This document shows, piece by piece, positions 1,652 through 12,822 of a stretch of 64,000 nt of DNA (its first letter is position 1; each line of letters opens with the position of its first letter). The position numbers and the translations under genes are program-made. The stretch covers positions 1 through 64,000 of the forward strand of contig NZ_WACR01000007.1 in assembly GCF_008806325.1 (NCBI RefSeq), given 5' to 3'. This DNA is from Salibacter halophilus (GTDB lineage: Bacteria; Bacteroidota; Bacteroidia; Flavobacteriales_G; Salibacteraceae). The notes below the pieces were generated by a model, which worked only from the letters and a program-made list of their open reading frames with translations, did not search any database and was not told where the DNA came from.

Positions 1652-3721
1652 TTGAAATTTAAATTAAGCAAAATAAAGCCTCAGGATATGGGGTTTTACG
1701 AAAAATTATTCAATTATTTCGAAAAGCCTGGCAAGGAGGTGTTTTGTTTTTTAGCGTTTGATTTAGAAGAATATGTGTTTTCTAACAAAATTAAAAGCCA
1801 TCTAAACCTAGATAATGAACAAATCACAGCTATACTAAATCAAAGTATTGACCCGGTTTATGAGGGTTACGTAGAGAGTGTGGGTAAATTCGGTATTGGA
1901 GAAAGAAGGAGGTTTCCACGTGTAGATTTAAATTTGAATCAAGAAACTAAACCATTTGTTACAACAAAATTAATTGACTTTACTGCTATTGGCCTAGATT
2001 TTGTGTTATTCCTGCTATTCCCTTCAGATTTGATTTTACCTGAAAAAATCAATGAGAATATTATTGAGTTGATATACGAACCCTCTTACTCTGTGGGCTT
2101 ATTGAACAAAGAGACTATCACTCTTTCAAATTCAACGAAATTAAAACTTGAAGATGTTAAAGTAAAGGCCGAGGCGGGGTATAAAGGAAAAAAAATACTG
2201 TTTTTTCAAAACCCAAATTCAACTTATTTCAACGAGTTTATTAAAGATTTTAGTGAAGTCCTCAAAAGTAGAGACGAGCAAATTCACTACAGAGAGTTGC
2301 TGACAGAGTCGATTTTCTCCGGTTTTTGGGATTGGAACATCACGACAAATTATGAGTATCTAAGCCCACAATTTAAAGCCATGTTTGGATACAATGTCGA
2401 TGAAATGGAAAACACTCCAGAATCATGGCAAAAAATTGCTTACAAAGAAGACTTACCTTCATTATTTAATGAATTTAACAAGCATATTGAATCTAAAGGT
2501 GTAAAACCTTTTTCTTCGATTACCAGATTTTATCATAAAGAAGGATATACCAAATACGTTTTATGTAGTGGGAGGGTGGTTGACTGGGATGAAGATTGGA
2601 ATCCCAAAAGAGCTATTGGAACTCATGTAGATTTAACAGAACAATTTGAAACTAGAAAAAAGCTAGATCAAAAAACAGAGGAAGCGGATAATATTTTCAG
2701 TTTTTCAAACTCATTATTCTTTTTAATTGATAAGGAAGGAGAAATAGTTTGGAACTCACCTAATATCAAGGAAAAACTCAAAACTTCTGAAGATGACTTA
2801 ACTGGTCAATCTGTTTTAACACTACTAAATCGAAAACCAGGCACGATAAACTCCTTTTTAGAAGATAAAATTGAAATCAAAACTTCACAAAATGAAAGGT
2901 GGTATGAAGTCTTTGCAACTGAAATTAGGCAGCATCTAGAAAATGAGAATGTTGATAGTGCAAAATATTTTTTTCAACTCCAAGATATTACTGAAAGAAA
3001 AAAAGCTGAAGATATTTATAAGAAAAATTTAGAAAAGGAAGAGAAAATTATAGAGCAGCAAAAAGTTTTTCTTTCTGCGAGTTCTCATATTTTGAGAACC
3101 CCACTTTCTGTAATTAACACCAATATTGAAATTATAAATGAGAAGGTCAAGGCTTTAGAACTATCTAAAAAGTTCACAAACATAGAGGTAATTCAAAATC
3201 AAGTTAAAAAGATCAATGGGCTGATCTCTGATATGACAGAGTATACCAATGTTAAAGAAAGAGAAAAATCAAAAGTTAATGCAGAAGAGTTAATCGACTT
3301 AATAGTTGAGGAAGCTAGAGATCATAAAATAGATTTCTCCGTAGAAAAAAAGACTTCTTTGAAAAACTACTATACTAAATCAAATAAGGTTAACCTGACA
3401 AATTTATTAAACTCATATTTTACTTTAATAAATGCAGGCGGAGAACAAAGTTATTCATATGAAATATACAAGTCTGGAAATGAGATTTATGTTGTTTACA
3501 CTGGCGGGATAATTGAAGGGTTTCACAATATTGTAAAGAACCACTTTAATGGAGATAGTACTTTTGATATAGATCATATGTCCAGTAAAATAATAGAGTT
3601 ACAGTTTAAATTTGAATTTTTTATAGAATTAGTCAATATTGAGCTATTAAAATTCAAATTTAAAGAGGCTGACGATAATTCAATCTCTTACACAATAGCA
3701 TTTAATCTATATGAAAACTAG
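1652..3721 (+). CDS. PAS-domain signalling protein with DHp domain and degenerate ATPase domain
   Basis: A 689-residue cytoplasmic protein with no membrane segment. Residues 1-215 are unassigned. A PAS fold covers about 222-335 (GFWDWNI...LSPQFKAMFGY...KEDLPSLF...GTHVDLTEQ) and a second PAS-like fold about 345-450. A HisKA/DHp helix follows with the phosphorylatable His at 479 (SSHILRTPLS). The region where a HATPase should lie (about 560-689) has no N-box, no DxGxG and no GxGLGL; instead it reads YTGGIIEGFHNIV. The acidic or amide residue normally after the H-box His is Ile. Autokinase activity is therefore unlikely; a role as a sensory phosphotransferase, like Spo0B or ChpT, is inference. 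The TTG at 1652 is taken as start; the first ATG is at 1688. It overlaps the next gene by 11 bases, suggesting coupled translation. Confidence 0.8.
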   Translation: MKFKLSKIKPQDMGFYEKLFNYFEKPGKEVFCFLAFDLEEYVFSNKIKSHLNLDNEQITAILNQSIDPVYEGYVESVGKFGIGERRRFPRVDLNLNQETKPFVTTKLIDFTAIGLDFVLFLLFPSDLILPEKINENIIELIYEPSYSVGLLNKETITLSNSTKLKLEDVKVKAEAGYKGKKILFFQNPNSTYFNEFIKDFSEVLKSRDEQIHYRELLTESIFSGFWDWNITTNYEYLSPQFKAMFGYNVDEMENTPESWQKIAYKEDLPSLFNEFNKHIESKGVKPFSSITRFYHKEGYTKYVLCSGRVVDWDEDWNPKRAIGTHVDLTEQFETRKKLDQKTEEADNIFSFSNSLFFLIDKEGEIVWNSPNIKEKLKTSEDDLTGQSVLTLLNRKPGTINSFLEDKIEIKTSQNERWYEVFATEIRQHLENENVDSAKYFFQLQDITERKKAEDIYKKNLEKEEKIIEQQKVFLSASSHILRTPLSVINTNIEIINEKVKALELSKKFTNIEVIQNQVKKINGLISDMTEYTNVKEREKSKVNAEELIDLIVEEARDHKIDFSVEKKTSLKNYYTKSNKVNLTNLLNSYFTLINAGGEQSYSYEIYKSGNEIYVVYTGGIIEGFHNIVKNHFNGDSTFDIDHMSSKIIELQFKFEFFIELVNIELLKFKFKEADDNSISYTIAFNLYEN

Positions 3722-4748
3722 AAATATTTTAGTCATAGAAGACGAACTGGATCTTTTAAACTCTATTAAAGATATATTAGAACTCAAAGGATATCATGTG
3801 TTTGACTTTTCTAAACCACAAAGTGCTCTAAATTATATCAACGAAAACAAAAATCAAATTGATCTCATTTTAAGTGATATAATGATGCCTGAAATGAGTG
3901 GTTTTGAATTATTGAGAGAAATAAGGTCTAACTCTCAGCTTGACCTAATTCCATTTGTTTTCTTAACTGCTAAAATTAAAGAGGATGATGTGAGACATGG
4001 ATTTGCCCTGGGGGCTGATGATTACATTAAGAAACCCTTTGAAATATCTGTTTTATCGAATTCAATTTCTGCTCAGCTAAAGAAAAGAGACTCTTTTCTA
4101 GCGCTACTTGAAGAGAATAGTAAAAAAGTAAAAGTTGCCACAAACACATTTGATCAATTGTCTTTTTTTAACAGTCATGTCTTGCGCGCACCACTTGCTA
4201 ATATTTTAACCATTTTAGAAGAAAAAAAACCTTTAAATGAAGAAGAAACATACTACATAAAGGAACAAGCAAAGAGAATTGATAGAGCAGTCATGTTATT
4301 GACCTCAAAAATGAGTAGGTTCAAGGGCGAAATTGATTACCAAATTAAAAAGTTGCCTGACTTTAACTTACTTGAGGAGGTAGTATTTGTAGATGATGAC
4401 AACTTCCAGGTGCAACACATTAAAATGTTGTTTGAAAGGTTTTTCCCTCACATAAAACTCAATTGTTTTTCAAACCCTTTAGAAGTAATCAATATCAAAC
4501 ATGAACCCCAGCTGCTGATTACAGATATCAATATGCCTGAAATGTCTGGTTTTGAGCTAATAGAAACGCTGTCCTCAAAAGAGTTTTTTCCTCCTACAGT
4601 AATACTTACCAGTAGCATTGATTTAGAAGATTTGGAAAAAGCTATGTCATTTGACAATGTCTTTCAATTTCTAAGAAAGCCTTTTACTCCTTCAGACTTT
4701 AAAAAGGCATTCATCAACAACAAAGGAGAACCAGGCAGTATAAATTAA
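3711..4748 (+). CDS. REC-DHp-REC two-component protein without kinase domain
   Basis: A 345-residue protein with two receiver domains around a histidine-bearing helical segment. REC1 (1-120) has acidic pocket E10/D11, phospho-acceptor D56 (LSDIMMPEMSG), T86 and K108. The linker 127-205 contains SHVLRAPLANIL with H156, which matches a HisKA H-box without an ATPase domain. REC2 (223-340) has DDD 228-230, acceptor D272 (ITDINMPEMSG), a Thr/Ser switch (LTSS) and KPF. Both receivers look intact. There is no output domain, so it should shuttle phosphate or signal by protein contact. It is translationally coupled to the upstream PAS/DHp protein and converges on the complete kinase gene with a 9-base gap. 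A phosphorelay role is inferred. Confidence 0.83.
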   Translation: MKTRNILVIEDELDLLNSIKDILELKGYHVFDFSKPQSALNYINENKNQIDLILSDIMMPEMSGFELLREIRSNSQLDLIPFVFLTAKIKEDDVRHGFALGADDYIKKPFEISVLSNSISAQLKKRDSFLALLEENSKKVKVATNTFDQLSFFNSHVLRAPLANILTILEEKKPLNEEETYYIKEQAKRIDRAVMLLTSKMSRFKGEIDYQIKKLPDFNLLEEVVFVDDDNFQVQHIKMLFERFFPHIKLNCFSNPLEVINIKHEPQLLITDINMPEMSGFELIETLSSKEFFPPTVILTSSIDLEDLEKAMSFDNVFQFLRKPFTPSDFKKAFINNKGEPGSIN

Positions 4749-4757
4749 AAATCAAAT

Positions 4758-6947
4758 TTATTTTTTGAATATAACAGAGCAGGTAGTACCCTTGTTGAGT
4801 TTTGACTTTATCATAATTTCAGCATCTTGCATGTTAGCTGCTTTTTTACAGATCAATAGCCCTAATCCGGTACCTTCATAATCTTTCGTGTTAGACCCTC
4901 TAAAAAAGGGTGTAAAAAGAGAAGCTTTATCTTTTTTGGGTATTCCTATTCCATTATCTGTAACACTTAATTTGATGAATTTCTCTTCTTTTTTGCAGTT
5001 GATTTTAACTTCATCTGTGGAGTATTTTAACGAGTTGTCAATGAAGTTTGTAAGGATTGTGGTTGTTAAATCAATATCCATTCTAACTTTTACCTCAATA
5101 CATAAGTCGAACTTGAGGCGCTTAAACTGATCCTCGTTGTTGAGAAAATAACTCTTTAGTGATTGCTCTAATTTTTTTAATGGAATTTTTTTCAAATGTG
5201 AAGCTCTGAAGTTATCGCTGTCCAACTTACTATTCTCTAAAAGGTTGGCAATTATGTCGAGAAGTTTATTCAGCTGTTTTTTTATTCGTAAAAAGTATTT
5301 GCTTTTGTCAATGTTTTTGAAAGATGAATTGAGTAATTCAAGGTTCGTTAAGATAGTTGAAATAGGGGTTTTAAGCTGATGGCTTCCCATATCAATTATA
5401 GACTTCTCTAAATTAATTAACTCTTGTGATTTACGAAGCACCTCCACTTTTTCTTTTTCGAGTTCTCTTCGCTTCGAGATGTCCCTGGATGTTGAAACTA
5501 TTTCGATTAGCCTCCCATCTTCATATATTCCTTTAGCATTAGTTTCAAGAATTATTTTATCACCATTTTTTCTAAACATTTCAATCTCACCTTCATAATG
5601 TGTGATCTCTTTATTTATCAATTTGACTAGCAAAGAATCCAATACTTCTCTTTGGGTCGAAGTGGTCAGTTCAAATGGGTTTTTACCAATCAGCTCTTCT
5701 GGTTCATAACCTAGTACATTTTTGGCTGATGCTCCAATAAATTTTATGTTAGCATTTGGTTTATGTAAACATATTATATCTGAATTATATTTAGAAATAG
5801 AGTTCAGTAATTTTGATTGATATTCCTTTTCTCTATTAAGCTTATACTCTTTTGTGATATCAATAAGTATGATCTCAAAGCTTTTTTCTGTTTTAGTTTC
5901 AAACTTATCTGCATATACTTGTAGCCATTTGTTTTCAACTTTTGATCTGGCTTTGAATTTAATTCTTTCGTGTTGAGAGTTATTTTCAAAGAATTTGCAA
6001 ATCTTATTTTTATCAAAGTCTGTTATTAAATCTTTTAACTTGTCTCCTTCAAGTTCACAATTATTTAAAATTTTATAAGCACCTCTATTGGCATAGTTGA
6101 TTGTACAATTTTCATCTAATTGAAGAAGCCCAACTGATGTTGTCTCGATTAATCTTTGATATTTTTTACGTAGTTTTTCTTCTCTTTCTTTAGAGTTTCT
6201 CAACTCAGTTACATTTTCAGAAACTGCAAAAATCATCCTTTCACCCCGGAAATTGAAAGGCGCTTTAGTTGTACGGTATATGCGATTTTCTCCCTTGTAG
6301 GTGGTGAAATCCTCATACTTGGTTAACGACTTGTTTTTGCTCAGAACCTCTCTTTCAAAGCTATCAAATTGATCCAGTTCACTTTTAACTTTATGAACTT
6401 CACTGTTACTAAAGTTTTCTATTTCTTCCTTATCTTTTCCAAACAGATCAGCAACAGCTTGATTTACTTTTATAAAGTCACCATTTGAATTCTTGACAAA
6501 AATCAAAGATGGACTTAGATCAAAAATGTTGTTTAAAAATTGAGCAGTTTCCCTCTGCAATTTATAATTTCTGTGTTCCTCATCAACGTTTCTCATTAAA
6601 CCAACTACATATACAGGCTTATTATTCTCAAATTTTGCCTTACCCTGGTGTTCAGTATAAATGATGGTTCCATCTTTTTTGACCATCCTGTATATTGTTT
6701 TCTCGAAGTAGTCACTTTGTTTTTTCAAATGCTCATTGACGGGCTTTAAGGCTTTCTCTAAATCTTCAGGAACAACGTGAGATTTATATGTTTCGAAAGT
6801 AGCTTCAAGTTCTGAAGAATCTTCATAACCCAGTAGTTGACACCAACTCTTAGAATAATAAACTGTGTCGGTACACAAATCCCACTTCCATATTCCAATG
6901 TTTTGTTTTTCAGTTAGCAGATCAAATAATTCTTTTTCGTAAAGCAT
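4758..6947 (-). CDS. Multi-PAS sensor histidine kinase
   Basis: A 729-residue soluble kinase. Four PAS domains lie in tandem at about 10-125 (GIWKWDL...), 130-250 (ILFDLSPSLIFVKN...), 260-370 and 380-495 (the last with a PAC-type QREVLDSLL...ISKRRELE end). The HisKA H-box is GSHQLKTPIS with H523, and the HATPase carries the N-box NFIDNSLKYS, DNGIGIP, FFRG and GTGLGL, so all catalytic motifs are present. No transmembrane segment is seen, so the signal is probably cytosolic (redox, small ligand or light through a PAS cofactor). It lies six bases downstream of the AraC-type response regulator on the same strand and is almost certainly its partner. Confidence 0.92.
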   Translation of the reverse strand: MLYEKELFDLLTEKQNIGIWKWDLCTDTVYYSKSWCQLLGYEDSSELEATFETYKSHVVPEDLEKALKPVNEHLKKQSDYFEKTIYRMVKKDGTIIYTEHQGKAKFENNKPVYVVGLMRNVDEEHRNYKLQRETAQFLNNIFDLSPSLIFVKNSNGDFIKVNQAVADLFGKDKEEIENFSNSEVHKVKSELDQFDSFEREVLSKNKSLTKYEDFTTYKGENRIYRTTKAPFNFRGERMIFAVSENVTELRNSKEREEKLRKKYQRLIETTSVGLLQLDENCTINYANRGAYKILNNCELEGDKLKDLITDFDKNKICKFFENNSQHERIKFKARSKVENKWLQVYADKFETKTEKSFEIILIDITKEYKLNREKEYQSKLLNSISKYNSDIICLHKPNANIKFIGASAKNVLGYEPEELIGKNPFELTTSTQREVLDSLLVKLINKEITHYEGEIEMFRKNGDKIILETNAKGIYEDGRLIEIVSTSRDISKRRELEKEKVEVLRKSQELINLEKSIIDMGSHQLKTPISTILTNLELLNSSFKNIDKSKYFLRIKKQLNKLLDIIANLLENSKLDSDNFRASHLKKIPLKKLEQSLKSYFLNNEDQFKRLKFDLCIEVKVRMDIDLTTTILTNFIDNSLKYSTDEVKINCKKEEKFIKLSVTDNGIGIPKKDKASLFTPFFRGSNTKDYEGTGLGLLICKKAANMQDAEIMIKSKLNKGTTCSVIFKK

Positions 6948-6953
6948 ATTAAA

Positions 6954-7697
6954 TCAGTTCTTTTGGCTAAACTTCTTAGGTGAAACTCTGTATTTGTCCT
7001 TAAAGCACTTTGAAAAATAAGATAGTGAGTTATATCCTACCATTGAGCTTATTTCTGAGATAGTGTTTGAATTCTGCTTAATCAAATGTGCAGCTCTTTC
7101 TAGTTTAAAGTTGTTAATAAACTCAGAGTAGTTTTGACCTGTCACGCGTTTAATTTTTTTCTGAACAGCTGAAGGGCTTAAGCTCAGTAGATCAGCCATT
7201 TTATCTAGACCAAAATCAGGATCATTACTGTGTTTTTGTACCTGATTTTTAACTTCTTCAAGGAATGAGATATCCTTATCTTTATGGTATTCGTGATCAG
7301 GGGTTTGTATTATCTTTTTTATTTGACCTCTTTTTCTTTCTATGATGTTATTAATAAGGTCAATGAATACTTCGTTATCAAAGGGCTTGTTCAAAAAATA
7401 GTCACTCCCTTTTTTAAGGGAGCTGCTGTAATCTTTATCTAATTTTCTAGCAGTAATGATAATAATTGATATATGATCGTATTGCTTTTTTGACCTTATT
7501 CGATCAAGTAGTGTTAAACCATCCATCTCAGGCATCATGATGTCTGAGATGATGATGTCTGGCTGATTGTGCTTAATTTCTTCAAGCACCTTGTTTGCCG
7601 AATCGAATAATGATACGTCAATATTCCTTAAGAGGAGTAATTCTTTTAAAGATTCTCCAAAACCTTTGTCGTCTTCGACTAAAATCACTTTTGACAT
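6954..7697 (-). CDS. Response regulator, REC domain plus AraC-type DNA-binding domain
   Basis: A 247-residue regulator. The receiver domain (1-120) has the acidic pair EDD near residue 8, the acceptor Asp in SDIMMPEMDG, a Thr switch (IIITAR) and KPF. The C-terminal 100 residues are an AraC/XylS helix-turn-helix pair: LADLLSLSPSAVQKKIKRVTGQNYSEFINNF followed by ISEISSMVGYNSLSYFSKCFKDKYRVSPKKF. It should be phosphorylated by the kinase encoded six bases downstream and bind target promoters. An inverted repeat (CAAATTT-TG-AAATTTG) about 30 bases upstream of its ATG may be an autoregulatory site. The first gene of its two-gene operon. Confidence 0.92.
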   Translation of the reverse strand: MSKVILVEDDKGFGESLKELLLLRNIDVSLFDSANKVLEEIKHNQPDIIISDIMMPEMDGLTLLDRIRSKKQYDHISIIIITARKLDKDYSSSLKKGSDYFLNKPFDNEVFIDLINNIIERKRGQIKKIIQTPDHEYHKDKDISFLEEVKNQVQKHSNDPDFGLDKMADLLSLSPSAVQKKIKRVTGQNYSEFINNFKLERAAHLIKQNSNTISEISSMVGYNSLSYFSKCFKDKYRVSPKKFSQKN

Positions 7698-11289: not shown

Positions 11290-12822
11290 TTACAACGATT
11301 CAATATTTTCGAGGTAGTACTCTGCTTGTTTGAGGTATTCTGTTTTTCGGTCAGATCCCATTTTGTCCCAGGTCCTGTACATCATTCCAACCCTGTGGTT
11401 GTCTCTGAGTTTATCTCGATGACGTTCATAGAATTGCCAGTACAAACTGTTAAACGGACACGCCTTTTCTCCCGTCTTTTTTGATTGGCTATAATGACAC
11501 AATTTACAATAATCACTCATCTTATTGATGTAACTAGCCGATGAAACATAAGGCTTTGTGCCAATGACACCACCATCAGCAAACTGGCTCATTCCGCGCG
11601 TGTTTGTGATCTCTACCCATTGAATTGCATCGATGTAAATTCCGAGATACCAGTCATCCAGTTCGTCAGGATTGACACCAGCTAAAAGAGCAAAGTTACC
11701 CGTAATCATGAGTCGCTGAATGTGATGAGCGTAAGCGTGATCAAGGCTCTGATTGATAGCATGACTCATGCATTTCATTTTGGTTTCACCTGTCCAGTAC
11801 CACGATGGCAAAGAGTTATCATGGTCAAAGAAATTGAGCGATTCGTAGTCAGGCATCTTTGTCCAATAGATACCGCGCATGAATTCTCGCCAACCCAAAA
11901 TTTGGCGTACAAAACCTTCGAGTTGAGCAATGCTGATTTCGTCTTTTCTGTTTTCCCACTCTTCAATTGAGCGGTCAACAACTTCTTGCGGACTCAGCAT
12001 TTTAGTGTTAAGTGAAAATGAGAGTCGGGAGTGGAAGAGACTCCAATCGCGATCAGTCAAAGCATCCTGATATTTCCCGAAAAGCGGCAAACAATCAGTC
12101 ATAAAATGATCGAGCAATTCAAGTGACTGATTGCGGTTTATTGGCCAAACTAATTTTTCAGCATCAATATTTCCAAAGTAATCGATTTCTTTTTCATCGA
12201 TCATTTTCACTATCTCATCGACATTGTTGTCAAAAGACTTTGGAGCTGGGATTTGTTGATCTTTTGGAAGTTTTTTGCGGTTTTCCTTGTCGTAATTCCA
12301 CTTTCCGGTTATCGGTTCACTTCCGTTCATCAACACATCGTGTTTTTTGCGCATGTGACGATAAAAGCTCTCCAGCAGGTATTGTTTTTTGCCTTTGAAA
12401 AAGTCCTCTAGCTCTGTGCGGGATGTGTAGAAATGCTCGGTATCGAAAACTTCGGTCTCTATGTTGAGGTTCTGACAGAAATCTTTGAGCTGTTCATCCA
12501 GTCGGTATTCATCAGGAAGTTGATATTCAAACCTTTTTATTTTTTCCTTTTTGATGATTTTCTCGATCAGCTTGTTGAAATCATGTAAGTTTTCAGGATC
12601 ACTGAGTTCGTAATATTTAACGGAGTGTCCTTCAGATGTAAGCCAATTTGAAAACGCTCTCATGGCAGCAAAAAAGGAAGTAATCTTTTGAATGTGATGG
12701 CGAACGTAGTTGGTTTCCTGTTTTACTTCTGCCATCAGGTAGATGACGTCATCATCAACCTTTTGAAACCAGGAATGGTTGTAATTGAGCTGATCGCCAA
12801 GAATTAGCCGGAGTGTTTTCAT
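11290..12822 (-). CDS. phrB: Cryptochrome/photolyase of the Fe-S bacterial (PhrB) type
   Basis: A 510-residue protein of the deoxyribodipyrimidine-photolyase-related family. It starts with LRLILGDQLNYNHSWF, the Rossmann antenna domain of this group. The FAD domain contains TRGMSQFADGGVIGTKPYVSSASYINKMSDYC. Cysteines at 351, 439, 442 and 455 (KMKCMSH, DYCKLCHY, KACPF) have the 88-3-13 spacing of the 4Fe-4S ligands of Agrobacterium PhrB as I remember them. Known members repair (6-4) photoproducts. It lies head to head with a DUF429 gene, 35 bases apart, next to the carotenoid operon, and probably belongs to a light response. Confidence 0.92.
   Translation of the reverse strand: MKTLRLILGDQLNYNHSWFQKVDDDVIYLMAEVKQETNYVRHHIQKITSFFAAMRAFSNWLTSEGHSVKYYELSDPENLHDFNKLIEKIIKKEKIKRFEYQLPDEYRLDEQLKDFCQNLNIETEVFDTEHFYTSRTELEDFFKGKKQYLLESFYRHMRKKHDVLMNGSEPITGKWNYDKENRKKLPKDQQIPAPKSFDNNVDEIVKMIDEKEIDYFGNIDAEKLVWPINRNQSLELLDHFMTDCLPLFGKYQDALTDRDWSLFHSRLSFSLNTKMLSPQEVVDRSIEEWENRKDEISIAQLEGFVRQILGWREFMRGIYWTKMPDYESLNFFDHDNSLPSWYWTGETKMKCMSHAINQSLDHAYAHHIQRLMITGNFALLAGVNPDELDDWYLGIYIDAIQWVEITNTRGMSQFADGGVIGTKPYVSSASYINKMSDYCKLCHYSQSKKTGEKACPFNSLYWQFYERHRDKLRDNHRVGMMYRTWDKMGSDRKTEYLKQAEYYLENIESL

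Follow-up and report, generated by a model that had tools for sequence, protein, structure and literature searches.

What does a protein do that carries receiver domains on both sides of a HisKA-like helix, with no kinase domain and no output domain? The question is raised by a gene at 3711-4748 in a 64,000-nt stretch of the Salibacter halophilus genome (contig NZ_WACR01000007.1, positions 1 to 64,000; hereafter the window). The reading we favour, to which we give an even chance, is that the protein is a kinase-less soluble phosphorelay intermediate, in which phosphate would pass from a kinase to D56, then H156 and then D272, and that it fuses into one chain what in other Bacteroidota is a module of separate kinase, REC-DHp and REC genes. 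The gene and its parts are laid out as follows.

3711..4748, forward strand: gene of the REC-DHp-REC protein, 345 aa, ATG at 3711, stop at 4746-4748 (ORF, Pfam, AlphaFold)
3726..4067, forward strand: REC1, residues 6-119, with phospho-acceptor D56, acidic E10/D11 and K108 (Pfam, invariant residues)
4044..4331, forward strand: predicted hairpin of DHp type, residues 112-207, with helices at 112-170 and 177-207, H156 and R159 (AlphaFold, profiles, conservation)
4377..4712, forward strand: REC2, residues 223-334, with phospho-acceptor D272, acidic D228/D229 and K323 (Pfam, AlphaFold)

The two receivers described as intact in the initial annotation are confirmed in position and in catalytic residues by Pfam (two Response_reg domains, combined E 2.1e-42), by the homologues and by the DNA, where D56 is encoded at 3876-3878, D272 by GAT at 4524-4526, and the intervening H156 by CAT at 4176-4178. 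The reported lack of an ATPase and of an output domain also holds: Pfam finds no HATPase in the protein and no DNA-binding, enzymatic or other output domain. The identities of a hybrid histidine kinase (no HATPase_c/CA with N, G1 and G2 boxes), of a response regulator with an output domain and of an HPt phosphotransfer protein (no Pfam match to Hpt, PF01627) were rejected on these grounds. The same genome has two Hpt matches elsewhere, separate from this gene.

The nature of the linker is less obvious from Pfam, where its HisKA match is sub-threshold (E 0.4, residues 155-192, with H156 near the start of the match). The initial annotation had seen a HisKA-like helix with H156 here and proposed structure prediction as a check. 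The AlphaFold monomer model (mean pLDDT 87.5; alignment of 22 sequences, all from the window and the fetched loci) yields a DHp-type hairpin: REC1 (1-119) is predicted to run into a 59-residue helix, 112-170, which bears H156 and is followed by a loop, a second helix (177-207) and REC2 (223-334), with a low-confidence stretch at 207-212. Between the DHp and REC2 the model places a 15-residue linker and no degenerate CA-like domain. A search of PDB folds with the full model returned mostly receiver domains, PleD and PorX among them, and says nothing on the hairpin. Residues 120-215 were scored against two profiles. One, of CA-less DHp domains from other genomes with the window and its nearest relatives left out, gives 30.3 bits, where 5000 shuffles reach at most 13.6; the other, of canonical HisKA DHp domains, gives 19.1 bits (best shuffle, 12.0). 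The CA-less profile, in a version that includes the window, matches the canonical one with 98.8% probability (E 1.3e-16, profile-profile comparison), and in one genome, G124, the REC-DHp homologue reaches 36.3 bits with the HisKA model of Pfam, above the cut-off of 26.9. From profiles and model we take the linker to be a true relative of the DHp domain. The protein appears to possess the HisKA-homologous hairpin and the phospho-histidine of a DHp histidine phosphotransferase, and because a HATPase match is absent, and with it a functional CA, no autokinase activity is predicted.

The three phospho-sites are conserved throughout the homologues, down to 27% identity. E10, D11, D56, K108, H156 and R159 are invariant in all nine, H156 thus showing the conservation that the initial annotation had asked for, and D228, D229, D272 and K323 are invariant in the eight that have REC2. 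Within the linker, invariance is limited to H156 and R159 and the remainder varies in sequence and length; in 22 CA-less DHp-REC sequences, too, the H-box keeps its H and R without exception. The residue at H+1 is V, K, K, K, I, V, V, V and E in the nine homologues, and E or D in 81 of 83 CA-bearing kinases, a sample drawn from the fetched loci by regular expression, whose 'CA-less' column includes real kinases with a missed G2 box and was not used as a count. Kinases of like layout, REC-DHp-CA, retain HE at the H-box in most cases. The V, K or I found at H+1 in 8/9 homologues would fit a lost autokinase constraint with phosphotransfer retained. A separate family of REC-DHp-CA proteins (L090, L105 and L112, relatives of L002 961-2055 of the window's own genome) presents the opposite picture to the invariant His of the REC-DHp-REC proteins: the phospho-His is apparently replaced by Lys or Glu in some members, as in ITKEISSPL, IGKELQEPL and IGEELREPL.

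A search for the architecture in other genomes, also proposed at the outset, shows it to be rare but not unique. Among 35 genomes of the family, REC-DHp-REC proteins occur only in the window genome and in G008, which has two copies; two genomes of the same genus (83% and 94% complete) lack them. Two Persicobacter plasmids carry one full-length homologue each. The homologue of Persicobacter psychrovividus (WP_332920209.1, about 31% identity, H-box SHKVRAPL) has a coiled coil about 30 residues longer than that of the window protein and is annotated only as 'response regulator'. A whole-protein scan of the genome contigs gave no REC-DHp-REC among its 80 loci, receiver domains dominating the matches. 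The second G008 copy (L119 355-1341) contains an in-frame TAA within REC1, and is either a pseudogene or an assembly error.

In another Bacteroidia family, f13, the parts of the window protein are distributed over three adjacent genes. In genomes G274, G320 and G248 the first gene codes for a kinase of 897-920 aa whose CA is intact, the second for a REC-DHp protein (about 211 aa, H-box NNSHVLRAPLLKILGL) and the third for a REC of 121-124 aa; the three follow one another in the same direction, overlapping or separated by 1-2 bp. In G124 a kinase gene is followed by a REC-DHp gene. Residues 1-212 of the window protein share 36-37% identity with the split REC-DHp proteins.

The immediate neighbourhood of the window gene comprises three further genes of two-component signalling.

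1652..3721, forward strand: upstream HisKA protein, PAS-PAS-HisKA, H479 at 3086-3088, HisKA over the cut-off (4.1e-7), no HATPase (Pfam)
4758..6947, reverse strand: complete histidine kinase, PAS repeats-HisKA-HATPase, convergent, candidate phosphodonor (Pfam)
6954..7697, reverse strand: REC-AraC (HTH_18) response regulator, adjoining the complete kinase (Pfam)

A HisKA protein is encoded immediately upstream of the REC-DHp gene in all six loci that have such a neighbour (the window, G008, G274, G320, G248 and G124), and in five of these its CA is intact. The exception is the window, where the upstream gene overlaps the REC-DHp-REC reading frame by 11 bp. The initial annotation spoke of a neighbouring kinase, but this upstream gene does not qualify as the working kinase of the operon: it has no HATPase match, the N, G1 and G2 boxes are absent from the C-terminal 156 aa of its product, and with two CA profiles this tail reaches only 2.4 and 1.1 bits, within the range of shuffles. 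The alignment leaves room for a degenerate CA; the AlphaFold model made without an alignment has a pLDDT of 38, too low to interpret. The upstream product resembles a pseudo-kinase or a second kinase-less DHp protein of the same operon. A complete kinase is at hand in the convergent gene at 4758-6947; the kinase next to the REC-DHp-REC gene of G008 is a homologue (E 1e-26). The adjoining REC-AraC regulator shares 29% identity with its G008 counterpart (E 4e-32), and in G008 the homologues of both lie directly upstream of the REC-DHp-REC gene. Between a hybrid kinase and a REC-DHp-REC gene of G008 lies a 116-aa reading frame (L119 1364-1711) that looked HPt-like by eye and was discarded as such, having no Pfam Hpt match. 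Farther along the window, 11290-12822 encodes a 510-aa protein that looks, by eye only, related to bacterial cryptochromes and photolyases.

In the relay we favour, D56 of REC1 would be phosphorylated by another protein, a histidine kinase that is probably the complete one at 4758-6947, and the phosphate would move to H156 on the hairpin, expected to form a dimer as DHp domains do. From H156 it would reach D272 of REC2, held on a flexible linker (residues 208-222), and phosphorylated REC2 would then act on a further partner or pass the phosphate to that partner. The relay is supported by the invariance of all three phospho-sites. Transfer from Asp to His to Asp within a single protein was proposed in the initial annotation; the f13 genomes with kinase, REC-DHp and REC as separate adjacent genes strengthen the relay as such, but direct passage from D56 to H156 in one chain is questionable, because the monomer model predicts about 44 residues of continuous helix between REC1 and H156, and REC1 may be unable to get to H156 within its own dimer. 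Besides this long helix, what counts against the relay is the occupancy of the REC1 position by PAS or GAF sensors in relatives, the loss of the H-box proline in the G008 copies, and the flanks of the Persicobacter copies, where no recognisable kinase gene is annotated within 6 kb on either side.

The sensor domains are at the core of a serious rival. Most CA-less DHp-REC relatives have PAS or GAF where the window protein has REC1, so that REC1 could be a gate and not a donor: its phosphorylation would alter the coiled coil and thereby control exchange between H156 and REC2 or outside receivers, as PAS would in the relatives. The predicted continuation of the last REC1 helix into helix 112-170 is consistent with such control. 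The spacings from K108 to H156 (41, 48, 52, 79 and 80) agree weakly, fitting half-heptad steps of a coiled coil only roughly: the coils of 41, 48, 48 and 48 residues share one phase, those of 52 and 79-80 are off by about half heptads, and the independent lengths are few. REC1 retains all its catalytic residues, which is compatible with gate and relay alike, but in the f13 genomes the REC-DHp gene has an intact kinase gene on one side and a REC gene on the other, as a relay would lead one to expect, and we consider an allosteric REC1 rather unlikely, if well worth weighing.

That the protein drains the neighbouring kinase or the REC-AraC regulator, with its DHp serving as a receiver phosphatase, seems quite improbable. 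HisKA phosphatases need Thr or Asn at H+4. This position is A, A, A, S, K, A, A, A and S in the nine homologues, as opposed to T or N in 65 of the 83 CA-bearing kinases, so classical HisKA-type phosphatase action is less likely. The lack of an output domain, the presence of two receivers beside a kinase/REC-AraC pair and the phosphatase activity suggested for HATPase-less HisKA proteins (PMC5847659) would suit a drain of this kind; the pure phosphate sink, which the initial annotation had offered as an alternative, loses ground given the invariant His. A hairpin that serves only for dimerisation, with H156 as a relic, is very improbable: the sub-threshold HisKA match and the weak scores of the two G008 linkers (15.2 and 13.3 bits, DHp profile) would agree with it, but H156 and R159 alone have been kept in a linker that otherwise varies.

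The relay we favour has a close parallel in Spo0F/Spo0B of Bacillus sporulation (PMC6136694), where phosphate likewise passes from a kinase to a REC, to a DHp His and to another REC, and where the DHp protein is without kinase activity. The window protein differs in uniting REC, DHp and second REC in one polypeptide, in having no CA-like domain after the DHp, and in a terminal REC without an output domain; its membership of the Spo0B family was judged by Pfam only. Kinase-derived DHp domains also move phosphate between two receivers in SdrG-PhyT-PhyR of Sphingomonas (PMC5898713) and through ChpT of Caulobacter (PMC3433190, PMC9981736). PhyT and ChpT are separate proteins that keep a degenerate CA, whereas the window protein has both receivers fused to its DHp, and we do not file it with them because the degenerate CA is absent.

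In the papers listed by our search, which was confined to the open literature, we found no characterised REC-HisKA-REC protein or Spo0F-Spo0B fusion. The initial annotation, too, knew of no characterised protein with this order, but the order recurs in G008 and Persicobacter, and the broader class of HisKA proteins without HATPase has already been catalogued. P2CS lists such proteins as 'possible incomplete histidine kinase', and archaeal examples include the regulators AF_1472 and Lokiarchaeum RHH-HisKA-REC (PMC5847659); regulators of the AF_1472 type were described from sequence and called unstudied in the same paper. With a HisKA-like domain, a conserved His, a REC partner where others have PAS, GAF or REC, and no HATPase, the window protein belongs to this class (PMC5847659), for whose members response regulator or kinase is the usual annotation. 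It differs from the published examples in having REC on both sides of HisKA, in its Bacteroidota origin and in the operon evidence of kinase, REC-DHp and REC genes. The fused protein offers a compact object for testing whether a single chain can move phosphate from Asp through His to Asp, and whether phosphotransfer needs more than a DHp.

Judged by sequence, the window protein is one of a larger group of CA-less DHp-REC modules in Bacteroidota, most of which are PAS-DHp-REC proteins or PAS-DHp proteins with a REC gene alongside. A query with DHp and REC2 recovers PAS(n)-DHp-REC proteins from other Bacteroidia, each a single polypeptide lacking CA, and a class-wide profile search matches from DHp through REC in at least about 22 of 295 genomes (an approximate count by eye), some matches holding a stop in between, that is, a DHp gene beside a REC gene. 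No HATPase was found by Pfam in the REC-DHp(-REC) homologues scanned. The conserved His, the loss of residues linked to autokinase activity and the kinase/REC-DHp/REC operons suggest that Bacteroidota have a functioning class of phosphotransfer modules without a kinase. More tentatively, and at somewhat under even probability, the window protein, with three relay sites (Asp, His, Asp) on one chain and its CA wholly lost, may be the fused end-member of a Bacteroidota class of PAS-, GAF- or REC-gated kinase-less DHp-REC proteins that would be signal-controlled phosphotransferases and not broken kinases. Two more CA-less DHp genes lie in the window's own genome: L217 151-1056 and, accompanied by a REC gene of its own, L118 6276-5407. 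Together with L150 140-1480 of the same genus, these encode PAS/GAF-DHp proteins that end about 60-70 residues past the H-box (for example WTQSHVVRAPLAKIMGLV); two of the three adjoin a REC gene, so that the module recurs in this split form.
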